Source: Asaia bogorensis (GTDB lineage: Bacteria; Pseudomonadota; Alphaproteobacteria; SHVZ01). From it: DNA of 34,835 nucleotides. A program made the position numbers and the translations under genes. Where the stretch lies: the NCBI GenBank assembly GCA_945897335.1, contig CAMDFP010000012.1, forward strand, positions 1 through 34,835, written 5' to 3'. Under the pieces are notes generated by a model that saw nothing but the letters and a program-made list of their open reading frames with translations, did not search any database and was not told the origin of the DNA. This document shows, piece by piece, positions 15,879 to 34,835 of this stretch. How positions within the stretch are numbered: position 1 is the stretch's first letter; every line of letters starts with the position of its first letter.

Positions 15879-16592
15879 TCAGGCCGGGGTGCCGCTCGAA
15901 GCCCGGTACCTTTCGAACCCGCTTTGACGCAGATCACAGGCCGGGCAGGTGCCGCAGCCGTAGCCCCAGGCGTGGAGATGCGTCCGGTCACCCTTGTAGC
16001 AGCTGTGGGTTTCGGTCCGGACGATCTCGGTGAGCCGGGCGCCGCCGAGCTGCTCGGCCAGCGTCCAGGTCTTGGCCTTGTCCAGCCACATCAGGGGTGT
16101 GTCGAGGACGAAGCGGCTCTCCATCCCGAGGTTGAGCGTCGCCTGCAGCGCTTTCAGCGTGTCGTCGCGGCAGTCCGGGTAACCTGAGTAGTCGGTCTCG
16201 CACATGCCGCCGACGATATGCTTGATGCCGCGGCGATAGGCGAGGGTGGCGGCGACGGTGAAGAACAGCAGGTTGCGGCCGGGGACGAAGGTGTTGGGAA
16301 GCCCGTTCGCCTGCATCCGGATGGCGACGTCGCTTGTGAGCGCGGTGTCGCTGATCTCGCCGATCAGGCCGAGGTCGATGACTCGGTCCTCGCCCAGCTT
16401 GCTCGCCCAACGGGGAAACCCTGCGCGGATCGAGGCGAGGATCGGCGCCCGGCAGTCGAGCTCGACGCGGTGGCGCTGGCCGTAGTCGAAGCCGACGGTC
16501 TCCACATTTTCGAAGCGATCGAGCGCCCAGGCGAGGCAGGTGGTCGAGTCCTGGCCGCCGGAGAAGAGGACGAGGGCGCTTAGCGGCATCAT
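15879..16592 (-). CDS. queC: 7-cyano-7-deazaguanine synthase
   Basis: A 237-residue QueC, which uses ATP and ammonia to convert 7-carboxy-7-deazaguanine to preQ0, a precursor of queuosine in tRNA. The PP-loop is [18 protein letters not shown] (residues 7-24). [29 protein letters not shown], and [13 protein letters not shown] are family signatures, and the C-terminal zinc site is CYKG followed by [11 protein letters not shown]. The start is probably the ATG at 16592 (or 16589). It follows the queuosine-precursor transporter gene with only 2 bases between, so the two form one unit. Other queuosine genes (queD, queE, queF) are not in the window. Confidence 0.96.
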
Positions 16593-16594
16593 GG

Positions 16595-17149
16595 TCAGGC
16601 CGGCGAGATTCCGAGTCGCAGGTCGCGGTCGCGGATCCAGCGCACCACCGGAATCGCGGCCAGCACCATCCAGGCCTTGCCGATGATCTGGCCGGCGAGG
16701 AAGTCGAGCGAGCCGAAGGCGAGGTAGAGGAACACCAGGCTGTCGACGGTGAGGCCGACCAGGCTGCTGGCGACGACGGCCAGCACCAGCCGGCGTTCCT
16801 GCAGCGGCGTGTAGACGGCGAAGTCGGCTAGCTCCGACAGGACGAAGGCGGCGACCGAGGCGAGCACCAGGGCCGGGGGCGCGACCAGAGCCGAGGCGAG
16901 GGCGCCGGCGACGATCGCGGCCAGAGACCAGGATCGCCCGAGTCGCCGCTGCACGATGTCGCGCAGCACCAATGCCAAGCCGATCATCAGCACGCCGCTG
17001 GGAGCCATGACCGACGGCGCCACCGGGATCAGGCAGGGGCCGTTCGGCACGCAGAGCGTGCCGACATTGCCGATCATCCAGTTGGCGAGCGGAATCGTCG
17101 CGCCGAACGCCGCGAGGGCGACGAAGCCCTCGATCCTTTCACGAACCAT
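16595..17149 (-). CDS. VUT family (YhhQ-like) queuosine precursor transporter
   Basis: A 184-residue integral membrane protein with about five or six hydrophobic helices. It matches the VUT/YhhQ (former DUF165) family: early [20 protein letters not shown] and LANWMIG, the [18 protein letters not shown] stretch, [21 protein letters not shown] with its conserved charged residues, and [16 protein letters not shown]. coli YhhQ imports preQ0/preQ1. Placement directly upstream of queC supports the same pathway here, so the cell could both make and import 7-deazaguanine bases. An extended -10 element lies upstream. The exact start is less certain than the family. Confidence 0.85.
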
Positions 17150-17218: not shown

Positions 17219-17479
17219 CTACCCTCCGCTGAGCGCCTGGACGATAGCGATCTCGTCGGTCGGCTTCAGCGGGCGGGCGAGGTCGAACACCTGCTCGCCG
17301 TTGAGGAAGACGCGCATGTGGCGGCGCACATGGTCCTGCTCGTCGACCATGCGGAAGCGGATGCCCGGGTATTGCCGGTCGAGGTCGGCGAGCAGCGCCG
17401 ACAAGGTGGCGCCGGCCGCCTCGACCTCGCGCTTCTTCCTGGTGTAGGAGCGGAGCGGCGTCGGGATCAGCACCTTCAC
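17219..17479 (-). CDS. MoaD/ThiS family ubiquitin-like sulfur-carrier protein
   Basis: An 86-residue beta-grasp protein ending in the diglycine that MoaD/ThiS proteins need for adenylation and thiocarboxylation (QALSGG at the C-terminus). The core LSALLADLDRQYPGIRFRM, RVFLNGEQV, and LKPTDEIAIV fits the family. The start is a GTG at 17477-17479 that overlaps the TGA of the Asp-box propeller gene, so the two are translationally coupled. No MoaE, MoeB, ThiF or ThiG gene lies nearby, which argues against ordinary molybdopterin or thiazole synthesis; pairing with an Asp-box propeller gene recurs in other bacteria as far as I recall. Its acceptor is unknown. Confidence 0.85.
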   Translation of the reverse strand: MKVLIPTPLRSYTRKKREVEAAGATLSALLADLDRQYPGIRFRMVDEQDHVRRHMRVFLNGEQVFDLARPLKPTDEIAIVQALSGG

Positions 17480-18648
17480 CTGACCTCTCCGGCCTCCACG
17501 GCGTAGATCTCCGGAAGATGCTGGGCGATCAGGCGCCATTTTTCGCCTTCGTCGCGGCTGCCCCAGAGCTCGCCCGAGGTGGTGCCGAAATAGACGCCGA
17601 CCGGATCCGAGGTGTCCGTCGCCAGCGCCTGACGCTTCACCGTCCACCACGCGTCGGTTGCCGGCATGCCGGCCGCCTGGCGTTTCCAGGTCTTGCCGCC
17701 ATTGCGGGTAACGAAGGCGCCGGGGATGCCGCCGGGACAGGTCCTCGGCCAGACATCGGTGCCGTCCATCGGGAACACCCAGGCGGCGTTTGCATCGCGC
17801 GGATGGACGGCCATCGGCAGGCCGATGTCGCCGACCTTCTTCGGCATGGCCTTGCCGACGCGGACCCAGGTCTTCGACGGCCGATCGAGCCGGTAGATGC
17901 CGCAATGGTTCTGCTGGTAGAGCCGGTCGGGGTTGGCAGGCGACATGCGCACGCAATGTGGATCGTGGAAGGCGATGTTCTTCGCATCGAAGCCGCCGAC
18001 GACCTCGAGCCCGTCGACCAGCGGCGTCCAGCTGCGGCCCTTGTCCAGCGACTCGTGCACGCCGCCGCCGGACATGGCGAAGTAGAGATGGGCCGGATCG
18101 CGCGGGTCGATGATGATCGAATGCAGCTTCGGCCCATCCGGCGTGCCGTCCTGCTCGGAGCCCATCCATTCGCGGTATTTCGGGTCGTCGTTGATCGTGG
18201 AGAAGGGATCCCAGCTGATGCCGCCATCCTCGGAGCGGAACAGTCCCTGGGGAGACGTGCCGGCATACCAGACGTTCGGTTCGTTGGCGTGTGCCGGCGT
18301 CAGCCAGAAGGTGTGGTCGACGGAGCGGCCCTTCTGGCCGGCCGGCGCCTTGGCGAAGGCGGGCGGGCGCTTGGCTTCCTTCCAGCTGCGGCCGAGATCG
18401 GTCGAGCGGAAGACGGTCGGGCCGAGATGGCCGGTCTTCGCCGCCGCCAGCAAGGTGCTGCCGTCACGCGGGTCCAGTATCATGTGGCTGATGATGTGGC
18501 CGAGGAAATGCGGCCCATCGGCCCGCCAGGTCTTCCGCGCCGCGTCGCCATGATAGATCCAGGCGCCTTTTCGTGTCGCGACCAGCACGACCGAACGCGG
18601 CTTCGAGGGCGGGCGCTTCGCCCGGGATGCGGGCTTCTTGGTGGCCAT
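17476..18648 (-). CDS. Cytoplasmic Asp-box (BNR) beta-propeller, exo-alpha-sialidase-like
   Basis: A 390-residue protein with at least five Asp-box repeats: RSTDLGRSW, RSEDGGISW, ESLDKGRSW, TRNGGKTW and GSRDEGEKW, spaced as in a beta-propeller of the sialidase/WD40-YVTN type. It opens with a lysine/arginine/proline-rich stretch (residues 1-19) and VVLVATRKGAWIYHGD, and has no signal peptide, so it should be cytoplasmic; true sialidases are normally exported. The sialidase arginine triad and Asp/Tyr/Glu catalytic set were not identified, so the automatic sialidase label would be unsafe. It lies between the MarR gene (3-base gap) and the MoaD-like gene (4-base overlap). The function is unknown, but the coupling suggests that the two proteins act together. 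Confidence 0.8.
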   Translation of the reverse strand: MATKKPASRAKRPPSKPRSVVLVATRKGAWIYHGDAARKTWRADGPHFLGHIISHMILDPRDGSTLLAAAKTGHLGPTVFRSTDLGRSWKEAKRPPAFAKAPAGQKGRSVDHTFWLTPAHANEPNVWYAGTSPQGLFRSEDGGISWDPFSTINDDPKYREWMGSEQDGTPDGPKLHSIIIDPRDPAHLYFAMSGGGVHESLDKGRSWTPLVDGLEVVGGFDAKNIAFHDPHCVRMSPANPDRLYQQNHCGIYRLDRPSKTWVRVGKAMPKKVGDIGLPMAVHPRDANAAWVFPMDGTDVWPRTCPGGIPGAFVTRNGGKTWKRQAAGMPATDAWWTVKRQALATDTSDPVGVYFGTTSGELWGSRDEGEKWRLIAQHLPEIYAVEAGEVR

Positions 18649-18651
18649 CGA

Positions 18652-19023
18652 TCATGTCCTTTCTGAAAGCGAGTCCTGGGCAGCCTTCCAGTCCGGATAG
18701 GCCGCCTCGAGTTTTTGTCGACCTGACGCCGTCAGCCGCAATGGCCGCTCTCGGCGGTCCTTCGGCGGGTCGACGTCGATCCAGCCGTTGCGTTCCAGCA
18801 AGGCTGCGTTCCGGGTCAGCGTGGTGCGCTCGAGACCCAGCAGCTCGGCCAGGTCCCGCATCGGCTTCGGCCCGGTGAGGGCGAGCGAGGCAAGCAGGGA
18901 GAACTGCGTCGCCTTGAGGTCGTGGCGGCGCAGCTTCGCCTCGAAATGCCGGGTGATCGCCCGCGCGTTTCGGCGCGCGGCGAGACAGCGGCAGTCGACG
19001 CAGAGCGACAGGTCCACGATCAT
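18652..19023 (-). CDS. MarR family transcriptional regulator with N-terminal cysteines
   Basis: A 123-residue winged-helix regulator. The first helix reads LAARRNARAITRHFEAKLRR, followed by LKATQFSLLASLALTGPKP, the recognition helix region LAELLGLERTTLTRNAALLE and the wing KDRRERPLRLTASGRQKL, all typical of MarR. The N-terminus carries three cysteines, C8, C11 and C13 (CVDCRC), which could sense redox state or bind metal; this is inference. The gene is the first of a run with the Asp-box propeller and the MoaD-like gene. A perfect inverted repeat overlaps its predicted -10 box, so autoregulation is likely. The predicted transcription start lies at or one base before the ATG, suggesting a leaderless mRNA. 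Confidence 0.88.
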   Translation of the reverse strand: MIVDLSLCVDCRCLAARRNARAITRHFEAKLRRHDLKATQFSLLASLALTGPKPMRDLAELLGLERTTLTRNAALLERNGWIDVDPPKDRRERPLRLTASGRQKLEAAYPDWKAAQDSLSERT

Positions 19024-19030
19024 GACATCA

Positions 19031-19058
19031 AGTGTAGATACACCTAATCAGGCGTCAA
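19031..19058 (-). promoter_or_regulatory. Candidate promoter and MarR operator palindrome
   Basis: On the - strand TTGACG (19058-19053) and TACACT (19036-19031) are separated by 16 bases. The inverted repeat GTGTA-GA-TACAC (19032-19043) covers the -10 box, a typical placement for repression by a MarR dimer. This is the whole gap between the thioesterase stop and the MarR start, so the element most likely controls the MarR/propeller/MoaD run. Confidence 0.6.
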
Positions 19059-19064
19059 GCTGGC

Positions 19065-32539: not shown

Positions 32540-33280
32540 TCAGGACGCCCAGTCGGGCCGCGGGATCGCCAGATAGGCTTCGCGCAGCGCCGTCGACCAT
32601 TGTTCGCGCAGCTCGCGGAAATAAGGGTCGTCCTCGCCGATGCGGCGGCGGATGTCGACCGCCAGCGCGTCCTTCTTGTAGACGAGCAGGTCGACCGGCA
32701 GCCCCACGGTCAGGTTCGACCGAAGCGTCGAATCCATCGAGACCAGGACGAGCTTGATCGCGTCATAGAGATCGCTGCCGTAGCGGGCGGCACGGTCGAG
32801 GATGGGCTTCCCATACTTGTGCTCGCCGATCTGCAGGAAGGGCGTGTCTTCCGTCGCTTCGATGAAGTTGCCGGCGGAGTAGATCTGGAAGAGCCGGAGC
32901 GAGCGGCCCTTGATCTGGCCGCCGAGGAGGAGCGCGACGTCGAATCCGACCTGCTGGGCGCGCATGGCCTCGCCATAGACCCCATACACCTTGCGCACGG
33001 CCTCGCCGACGATCTGCGCCGCCCGGAACATGCTGGGCGCCTTCGCCAGCGTCTCCATCTGGCCGGTGTCGGCACTTTCGAATCCTTCCGACACCAGATT
33101 CACGACCGCCTGGGTGATGGCGAGGTTGCCGGAGGTGGCGAGGCAGATCATGCGCTCGCCCGGGATCTCGACCACGTGCAGCTTGCAGAATGTCGCGATG
33201 TTGTCGACGCCGGCATTGGTGCGGGTGTCGGCCAGCATGACGAGGCCGCCCTGGAGGCGGAGGCCCACGCAATAGGTCAT
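32540..33280 (-). CDS. Anbu-type proteasome-like peptidase
   Basis: A 246-residue Ntn-hydrolase of the Anbu (ancestral beta subunit) group. After removal of Met1 the nucleophile would be T1 (MTYCVGLRL), with D17 in ADTRTNAG and K32 in FCKLHVV matching the proteasome triad. GERMICLATSGNLAITQAVV and SMDSTLRSNLTVGLPVDLLV are typical family stretches. Known Anbu structures are open helical or ring assemblies without an ATPase partner. The start at 33280 is required to expose the Thr; the open frame extends 49 codons upstream into the transglutaminase gene and is not used. The gene follows the transglutaminase-like gene after 22 bases and forms one locus with it and the alpha-E gene. Confidence 0.92.
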   Translation of the reverse strand: MTYCVGLRLQGGLVMLADTRTNAGVDNIATFCKLHVVEIPGERMICLATSGNLAITQAVVNLVSEGFESADTGQMETLAKAPSMFRAAQIVGEAVRKVYGVYGEAMRAQQVGFDVALLLGGQIKGRSLRLFQIYSAGNFIEATEDTPFLQIGEHKYGKPILDRAARYGSDLYDAIKLVLVSMDSTLRSNLTVGLPVDLLVYKKDALAVDIRRRIGEDDPYFRELREQWSTALREAYLAIPRPDWAS

Positions 33281-33302
33281 CGTCGGTCCCGATAGGCGGA
33301 GG

Positions 33303-34118
33303 TTACTGCTGCGCCTGAACCTGCTGCACTTCCACCGCCACCGCAAGCGTCTCCGCTGCACCGCCCCGGCGGATGCCGCGCACGGGCGCCGCCTCGGTGT
33401 AGTCGAGGCCGACCGCGACCCGCACATAAGCCTCGGTCGGAGACAGGCCGTTGGCGGCGTCGAACCCGACCCAGCCGAGCCGGTCGATCCGGACCTCGGC
33501 CCAGGCGTGGCTCGCCTCGGTCGGCTCGGTGCGCGGGCCGTCCCAGAAATAGCCGCTAACGTAGCGGGCGGGGTGGCCGAGCAGGCGGGCCGCGGCGATC
33601 AGCACATGGGCATGGTCCTGGCAGACGCCGTGTCCGCGCGCCAGCGCCTCGGCGGCGGATGTGACGACCGAGGTCGAGCCCACCTCGTAGACGACGCGGG
33701 CACGTACATCGAGCATCAGCCGGTGCAGGCGCTCGACCGGATTGGCGACGCCGGCCTGGGCTGCGGCGAGATCCTCGATCGCCTTGTCCGGGCGGGTCGC
33801 ATCGGTCTGGCGGAGATAGAAGAGCGCCGGCAGAGGATCGATGGCGCCGGTGACGACGCCGGCTGACTCGCTGGTCTCGACCTCGCCTTCGACGATGATC
33901 GCCGACTCCTCGTGCCGGCGTTCGATGGTGACCAGGTGGCAGCGGTTGCCGTAGCCGTCCTCGAATCCCGGAAGCATCCGCCGGTTGCCGTCCATGACCC
34001 GCCAGGAGAGCACGCGCTGGCCTTCGTGGTCGCGCGGCGCCAGGCGCACGACCTGGGCCGCCAGGTCGATCGGCTTGTCGTAGCGATAGCGGGTCTCGTG
34101 GCGGATACGGATACGCAT
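33303..34118 (-). CDS. Transglutaminase-like cysteine protease family protein
   Basis: A 271-residue protein of the bacterial transglutaminase-like family (COG1305). MRIRIRHETRYRYDKPIDLA is the characteristic N-terminal beta domain, and the catalytic triad is C166 in GHGVCQDHAHVLI, H204 in EASHAWAEVRID and D220 in GWVGFDAANG. Such proteins act as peptidases or amide-bond-forming enzymes; the substrate is unknown. No signal peptide is seen, so it is probably cytoplasmic. It lies 3 bases after the alpha-E gene and 22 bases before Anbu, the conserved arrangement, and probably handles the same peptide or modified protein. Confidence 0.92.
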   Translation of the reverse strand: MRIRIRHETRYRYDKPIDLAAQVVRLAPRDHEGQRVLSWRVMDGNRRMLPGFEDGYGNRCHLVTIERRHEESAIIVEGEVETSESAGVVTGAIDPLPALFYLRQTDATRPDKAIEDLAAAQAGVANPVERLHRLMLDVRARVVYEVGSTSVVTSAAEALARGHGVCQDHAHVLIAAARLLGHPARYVSGYFWDGPRTEPTEASHAWAEVRIDRLGWVGFDAANGLSPTEAYVRVAVGLDYTEAAPVRGIRRGGAAETLAVAVEVQQVQAQQ

Positions 34119-34121
34119 CGT

Positions 34122-34835
34122 TCAGAACAGATAATGCCGGCTGATCTCGCCGCCCAGCACCGTGTTGGTGTCGATGAATTCGGTCAGGAATTCGTGCAGG
34201 CCAGCCTGGAAGATCGCCTCGATCCGGCCGTAGCGCAAACGGGCGTCGATCTCGCCGGCCAGGCGGTGGCATTCGCCGCGCGCCCCATAGGACTGACCCA
34301 GCACGTCGAGCTGGCGGGAGATCTCGCCGAGGCAGCTCATCAGAGAGCGTGGCATCTCCGGGCGGAGGATGAGCAACTCGGCGACCAGCCAGGGCTTCAC
34401 CCGGTCGCGATAGACCCAGTGATAAGAGCGCAGCGCCGAGACCGAGCGCAGGATCGCCGTCCACTGGTAGTAGTCGACCAGGCCACCGACCGGTTCGGTC
34501 TTGGGCAGCAGAACGAGGTATTTCACATCGAGGATGCGGGCGGTGTTGTCGGCGCGCTCGACGAAGGTGCCGAGCCGGCTGAACCAGTAGGCATCGCTGC
34601 GCAGCATGGTCGCGGCGACGGCGCCGCCGAAGAGCAGCGAGCGCTCCTTCACCCGGTCGAGCACGCGGCGCACCCGTTCGGGCGAGAAGTCTTCGGGCCT
34701 GAGCTGGCGCATTTCAAGCCAGGTCGCGTTCACAGCCTCCCACATGTCGGCGGTCAGCGCGGTGCGGACGGCGCGGCCATTGTTCCTAGCCGTTTCCAGG
34801 CAGGAGAGGATCGAGGATGGGTTATCGGGATCGCG
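34122..34835 (-). CDS. Alpha-E domain-containing protein, 5' end outside the window
   Basis: About 237 residues of an alpha-E protein (COG2307), cut at its N-terminus by the window edge. The frame stays open upstream of the internal ATG at 34745 and reads RDPDNPSSILSCLE, then ARNNGRAVRTALTADMWEAV, a strong family signature, so the true start lies beyond 34835. Further signatures are SDAYWFSRLGTFVERADNTA, YYQWTAILRSVSALRSY and LHEFLTEFIDTN. The domain is all-helical and of unknown chemistry. It is normally encoded with a circularly permuted ATP-grasp protein, a transglutaminase-like protein and Anbu; the last two follow here and the ATP-grasp gene would be expected just to the right. Confidence 0.92.
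   Translation of the reverse strand, partial: RDPDNPSSILSCLETARNNGRAVRTALTADMWEAVNATWLEMRQLRPEDFSPERVRRVLDRVKERSLLFGGAVAATMLRSDAYWFSRLGTFVERADNTARILDVKYLVLLPKTEPVGGLVDYYQWTAILRSVSALRSYHWVYRDRVKPWLVAELLILRPEMPRSLMSCLGEISRQLDVLGQSYGARGECHRLAGEIDARLRYGRIEAIFQAGLHEFLTEFIDTNTVLGGEISRHYLF

Follow-up and report, generated by a model that had tools for sequence, protein, structure and literature searches.

In at least five phyla, a gene for a cytoplasmic, seven-bladed Asp-box propeller is paired with a gene for a ubiquitin-like carrier of the ThiS/MoaD/CysO type, far beyond what chance would produce. We interpret this pair, with confidence and doubt in roughly equal measure, as a two-gene sulfur-carrier module whose propeller serves as the dedicated partner of the carrier, probably as its acceptor enzyme. 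This interpretation draws on the steady pairing, the Gly-Gly ends of the carriers, the linkage of an E1 gene in two relatives, and a conserved set of propeller residues that is not that of a glycosidase. The components belong to known kinds and their combination appears to be undescribed: no description of the propeller-carrier pair was found in the literature searched, which left out most subscription papers, and the words propeller, sialidase and BNR are absent from two surveys of prokaryotic and archaeal ubiquitin-like proteins (PMC1779556, PMC2948915).

The three-gene operon of the window

The window, a 34,835-nucleotide stretch of DNA from Asaia bogorensis, encodes on its minus strand a 123 amino acid MarR-family regulator (18652-19023), the propeller (390 amino acids, 17476-18648; family of PDB 3B7F) and the carrier (86 amino acids, 17219-17479), in that order. 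Three bases (18649-18651) separate the regulator and propeller genes, and the propeller stop codon and the GTG start codon of the carrier gene share the 4-base overlap GTGA, exactly as the initial annotation had reported. The separate promoter that it assigned to these genes was located as well: a sigma-70-like site, TTGACG-16-TACACT, lies upstream of the MarR gene on the same strand (19058-19031) and matches the consensus at 9 of 12 positions, with two such sites observed in the region versus 0.2 expected. With only 7 bases between the end of the -10 element and the start codon of MarR, the transcript of the three genes may be nearly leaderless.

The regulator has the winged-helix MarR domain (MarR_2, PF12802; 41.6 bits versus a cut-off of 27, E = 1.4e-10). 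The -10 element overlaps a palindrome with a 2-bp centre, GTGTATCTACAC (19032-19043), a putative MarR operator whose counterpart, GTGTAnnTACAC, precedes the MarR gene in L010/L091, L093, L094 and L096. MarR homologues occupy the same position in L010, L093, L094 and L096, and a divergently placed one is found in L052; apart from the latter, the regulator is confined to the window's family, and no further operon member recurs. MarR is a lineage-specific addition to the propeller-carrier pair, and the description of the module as MarR-controlled therefore holds within the window's lineage but not beyond it. Near the N-terminus of the window's MarR is a CxxCxC motif (18985-19002), of which CxC is retained in relatives, the divergently placed MarR of L052 among them; the motif may serve as a thiol or persulfide switch.

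Downstream of the carrier gene, also on the minus strand, are genes for QueC and a VUT-type transporter (15879-17149); a trpB-like gene takes this place in L010, so these two do not belong to the module as constant members. Some 13 kb away, the minus strand carries an Anbu-type operon (32540-34745) encoding a proteasome-like subunit (PF00227), a transglutaminase-like protein (PF01841/PF08379) and an Alpha-E protein (PF04168).

Phyletic distribution, gene order and unlinked genes

Full-length propellers (E < 1e-100) were detected in 16 of the 249 genomes of the Pseudomonadota sample, and the carrier gene is immediately adjacent in 13 of these 16. Among Chloroflexota, the propeller is present in 52 of 151 sampled genomes and the carrier adjoins it in 26 of the 30 loci read, often at a spacing of 8 bases by the profile boundary. 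It is these fractions in two phylum samples that put the pairing beyond chance. The pair was also found in Myxococcota, Acidobacteriota, Neomarinimicrobiota and an archaeal Thermoplasmatota metagenome-assembled genome (MAG), and, in convergent orientation, in a Zixibacteria MAG, with the reservation that the MAG assignments are possibly contaminated. The adjacency is thus spread over several phyla; restriction to one lineage, which the initial annotation had named as fatal to its proposal, is not what was found.

Linked loci are typically on the same strand with short gaps. No other neighbour recurring across phyla was found, so propeller and carrier are each other's sole constant partner. Copies from Myxococcota and Burkholderiales share 73-76% identity with those of the window; in L011, with a propeller in this identity range, a rhodanese-E1 fusion is encoded directly downstream of the pair, and in L192 an E1 gene lies beside the pair on the opposite strand. 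No natural propeller-carrier fusion was seen, and long open frames around some carriers that were considered as fusions proved to be out-of-frame overlaps or JAMM-carrier-E1 fusions. A phage origin of the module was likewise rejected, no viral relative having been found. A Pseudomonas aeruginosa plasmid carries the pair with the carrier first (L004, 4747-6143), and we presume that it may match the chromosomal PA1355/PA1356. PA1356 is mentioned in passing in a transcriptome paper (PMC11538994).

The 42 linked loci, some of which are near-duplicates, include 31 with the propeller first and 11 with the carrier first. In the propeller tree, ten of the carrier-first loci group together in a single clade with strong support, and gene order, as read from this tree, marks deep clades. 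Carrier and propeller distances are correlated (r = 0.91, with none of 2000 permutations as high), which is a sign of co-inheritance, not of contact.

Solo propellers of the Rhodobacter type nest inside the propeller-first loci on the propeller tree, which suggests that they have lost the carrier. Three of the 16 Pseudomonadota propeller genomes (G251, G135 and G281) encode no carrier of the paired type anywhere, and the propeller of Streptomyces is unlinked, with the carriers of these genomes found in other contexts, for example, next to threonine-synthase-like or cysteine-synthase-like genes. Given the propellers in genomes without such a carrier, the partnership is not obligatory everywhere. 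A search by eye around four Chloroflexota propellers for which no carrier had been detected revealed no small neighbours ending in Gly-Gly. One Chloroflexota contig (G312 contig 1, 760928-766149) encodes two full-length propellers separated by about 3 kb; no carrier was found for the propeller read there (L176).

The carrier and the host genome

The carrier is a member of the beta-grasp family (ThiS, PF02597; 48 bits versus a cut-off of 22.5, E = 1.9e-12). Its nearest solved relatives are CysO-type chains (4n6e_B, 2e-18; 3dwg_C, 2e-17), and its best NCBIfam matches, SAMP1 (NF041918, 43.6 bits versus 60) and moaD_arch (42.6 versus 49.5), both fall below the cut-off. The window carrier ends in ALSGG. 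Among the linked carriers, 41 of 42 terminate in Gly-Gly, usually as SGG or AGG, and the remaining one has a short extension after it; most Chloroflexota carriers also have this terminus. Residues beyond Gly-Gly are present in the carriers of L015/L173 and L168 (L015, 7110-7430), where trimming would be required before activation.

CysO-type carriers partner with CysM-like enzymes, and CysO itself also with Mec+. No CysK/M-like or JAMM gene adjoins any pair, and the window carrier lacks the linkage to MoaE or MoeA that characterizes MoaD proper. Related carriers outside the pair have threonine-synthase, CysK or E1 neighbours (L146, L152) or an E1 neighbour (L147, L150), and two Pseudomonadota genomes (L148 and L149) encode single proteins of about 630 amino acids that combine JAMM, a ThiS-like carrier, E1 and rhodanese. 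In the pair, the propeller fills the position that known acceptor or E1 genes hold beside these related carriers.

The genome of the window (a 5.0-Mb assembly in 442 contigs, about 96% complete) has two ThiS-family genes, the window carrier and a canonical MoaD, the latter on contig C174 between MoeA- and MoaE-like genes, and a single E1, which is MoeB-like (263 bits) and encoded beside a CysK-like gene. The absence of molybdopterin partner genes noted at the outset accordingly applies inside the window but not genome-wide, and the genome does not lack an E1, the other finding that would have spoken against the original proposal. E1 was found in all 35 propeller genomes searched. In the Pseudomonadota background, E1 is encoded by 247 of 249 genomes and MoaE by 213 of 249, so that their co-presence with the pair, being near the phylum background, is uninformative, and the idea that either gene is enriched in genomes with the pair was dropped.

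Fold and conserved residues of the propeller

The propeller scores barely above the cut-off with two Pfam families, BNR/Asp-box (PF02012) and Sortilin-Vps10 (PF15902), and belongs with PDB 3b7f by both full-length profile (E = 4e-149) and fold (TM 0.90, 58% identity; AlphaFold model with pLDDT 91). Its N-terminus, MATKKPASRAKRPPSK, read from the sequence, has no hydrophobic signal segment, in agreement with the earlier assignment to the cytoplasm. Residues conserved in all groups outside the Asp-box and structural positions include K27, W161, H176, H231, Q246, H248, R302 and R339; all of these except W161 are listed as also kept in solo propellers. Differences between paired and solo propellers are weak, so no carrier-binding site can be named. 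By the strand order of the predicted structure, not by coordinates, the conserved polar residues are at the starts of the inner strands and in the loops between strands 2 and 3, on one face. This face has been recommended as the place to seek function in Asp-box propellers (PMC2716378).

The structural neighbours of the propeller include Ycf48, DAIP and sortilin, all with peptide-bound structures, and GH74 enzymes. GH74 enzymes are marked by a tandem pair of propellers with a catalytic Asp pair in the cleft, and GH33 sialidases by a Tyr/Glu nucleophile pair, an Arg triad and an Asp acid/base. The window protein is a single seven-bladed domain; no Tyr or Glu is invariant at the positions conserved across all groups, only two Arg are, and the BNR_2 score is 14.6 bits versus a cut-off of 31.4. 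Without an invariant Tyr or Glu, the propeller is not a sialidase, which bears out the suspicion that the catalytic set is missing, and a sialidase or glycosidase identity was rejected on residue conservation and family scores.

The initial annotation also raised the prospect of the diglycine tail reaching into the propeller. For L012, a fused chain in which the TGA between the propeller and carrier genes was read as Ser was predicted (pTM 0.76) with both domains folded, the carrier part at high confidence. The last three residues, with the Gly-Gly tail, were disordered (pLDDT < 50), and there was no sign of tail entry in this weak test, with its short linker, unpaired alignment and lack of coordinates.

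A putative sulfur-carrier module and its alternatives

In the module that we propose, the Gly-Gly of the carrier would be activated by the MoeB-type E1 of the cell and would then bear sulfur in the form of a thiocarboxylate, as is typical of its family. The propeller, the partner dedicated to this carrier and, most likely, its acceptor enzyme, would receive the carrier tail on the face bearing the eight conserved residues named above, from K27 to R339, and would hand the sulfur on to either a small substrate or a metal bound by the histidines. In the window's lineage, MarR with its N-terminal cysteines would control the operon via the operator that overlaps its own promoter. A role of the propeller as acceptor or scaffold fits the data. 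Against the module stand the solo propellers with the same conserved residues, which indicate that a linked carrier is not required for the propeller to work. A more specific version, which we put forward tentatively and would sooner doubt than assert, is that of a new sulfur-insertion enzyme class, in which a cytoplasmic propeller uses the carrier's sulfur and a His/Lys/Arg face, possibly with a metal, to thiolate a metabolite or build a metal-sulfide centre.

The propeller might instead be a non-enzymatic binder or chaperone that holds or hides the carrier tail and times sulfur delivery to another acceptor, much as Ycf48 binds the D1 peptide. The peptide-bound structures among its nearest structural neighbours and the carrier as its only constant partner argue for such a role, but the seven residues kept in solo propellers resemble an active or ligand site and the fused L012 prediction showed no docking, so we regard this as unlikely. 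Less probable still, the carrier could be a SAMP-like protein modifier, with the propeller as its main target or as a substrate adaptor. SAMP1 and archaeal MoaD are indeed its best NCBIfam matches, and some relatives have residues past Gly-Gly that would need trimming; however, both matches are below the cut-off, no JAMM gene recurs beside the pair, and the closest solved relatives are CysO-type sulfur carriers.

Only slightly lower in our estimation is the possibility that the two genes are independent and stay side by side because lateral transfer moves them as a small stress island, with no joint biochemical step. The MarR regulator, the patchy distribution and the high identity of the Myxococcota and Burkholderiales copies would suit a mobile stress module, but two gene orders in deep clades, linkage in most lineages and the distance correlation are hard to explain without a joint function. 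We give very little credence to the annotated identity of the propeller as a sialidase- or GH74-type glycoside hydrolase with the carrier as merely a frequent neighbour: the database names, the Asp-box fold and the GH74 enzymes among the structural neighbours speak for it, and against it are the missing Tyr/Glu, the low BNR_2 score, one propeller versus the two of GH74, the absence of a signal peptide and a carrier adjacency maintained over several phyla.

Known ThiS/MoaD-type carriers serve dedicated acceptors, and their products are a cofactor, an amino acid, a thionucleoside or a siderophore. The pairing of such a carrier with a propeller across several phyla would imply another sulfur-transfer product, overlooked because the propeller is automatically named 'exo-alpha-sialidase' or 'glycosyl hydrolase'. 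The link would supply a testable function for PDB 3B7F and correct a widespread, misleading annotation. If true, the propeller sulfur-insertion enzyme would bring a structural type new to the carrier-dependent acceptors, one that is common in Chloroflexota and Pseudomonadota.

Comparison with known systems

The same seven-bladed family includes PDB 3B7F (Reut_B4987 of Cupriavidus (Ralstonia eutropha) JMP134, 'BNR glycosyl hydrolase'), for which no function or partner was found described. It has been listed as seven-bladed with function 'not known' (PMC2716378). Ycf48/HCF136 is likewise a single Asp-box propeller and a structural neighbour, with a solved D1-peptide complex, but it is a photosystem II assembly factor with about 15% identity to the window propeller. 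To our knowledge, Ycf48/HCF136 has no carrier partner. The CysO-type carriers (4N6E_B, a ThiS/MoaD-family chain, and M. tuberculosis CysO, 3DWG) share the Gly-Gly end of the window carrier, whereas the constant neighbour of the latter is the propeller, without an adjacent cysteine-synthase gene. The MoaD/MoaE and ThiS/ThiG systems resemble the proposed module in combining a beta-grasp Gly-Gly carrier, E1 activation and a dedicated acceptor protein; here, in contrast, the fold of the partner is unrelated, and a separate MoaD is encoded beside MoaE in the same genome.
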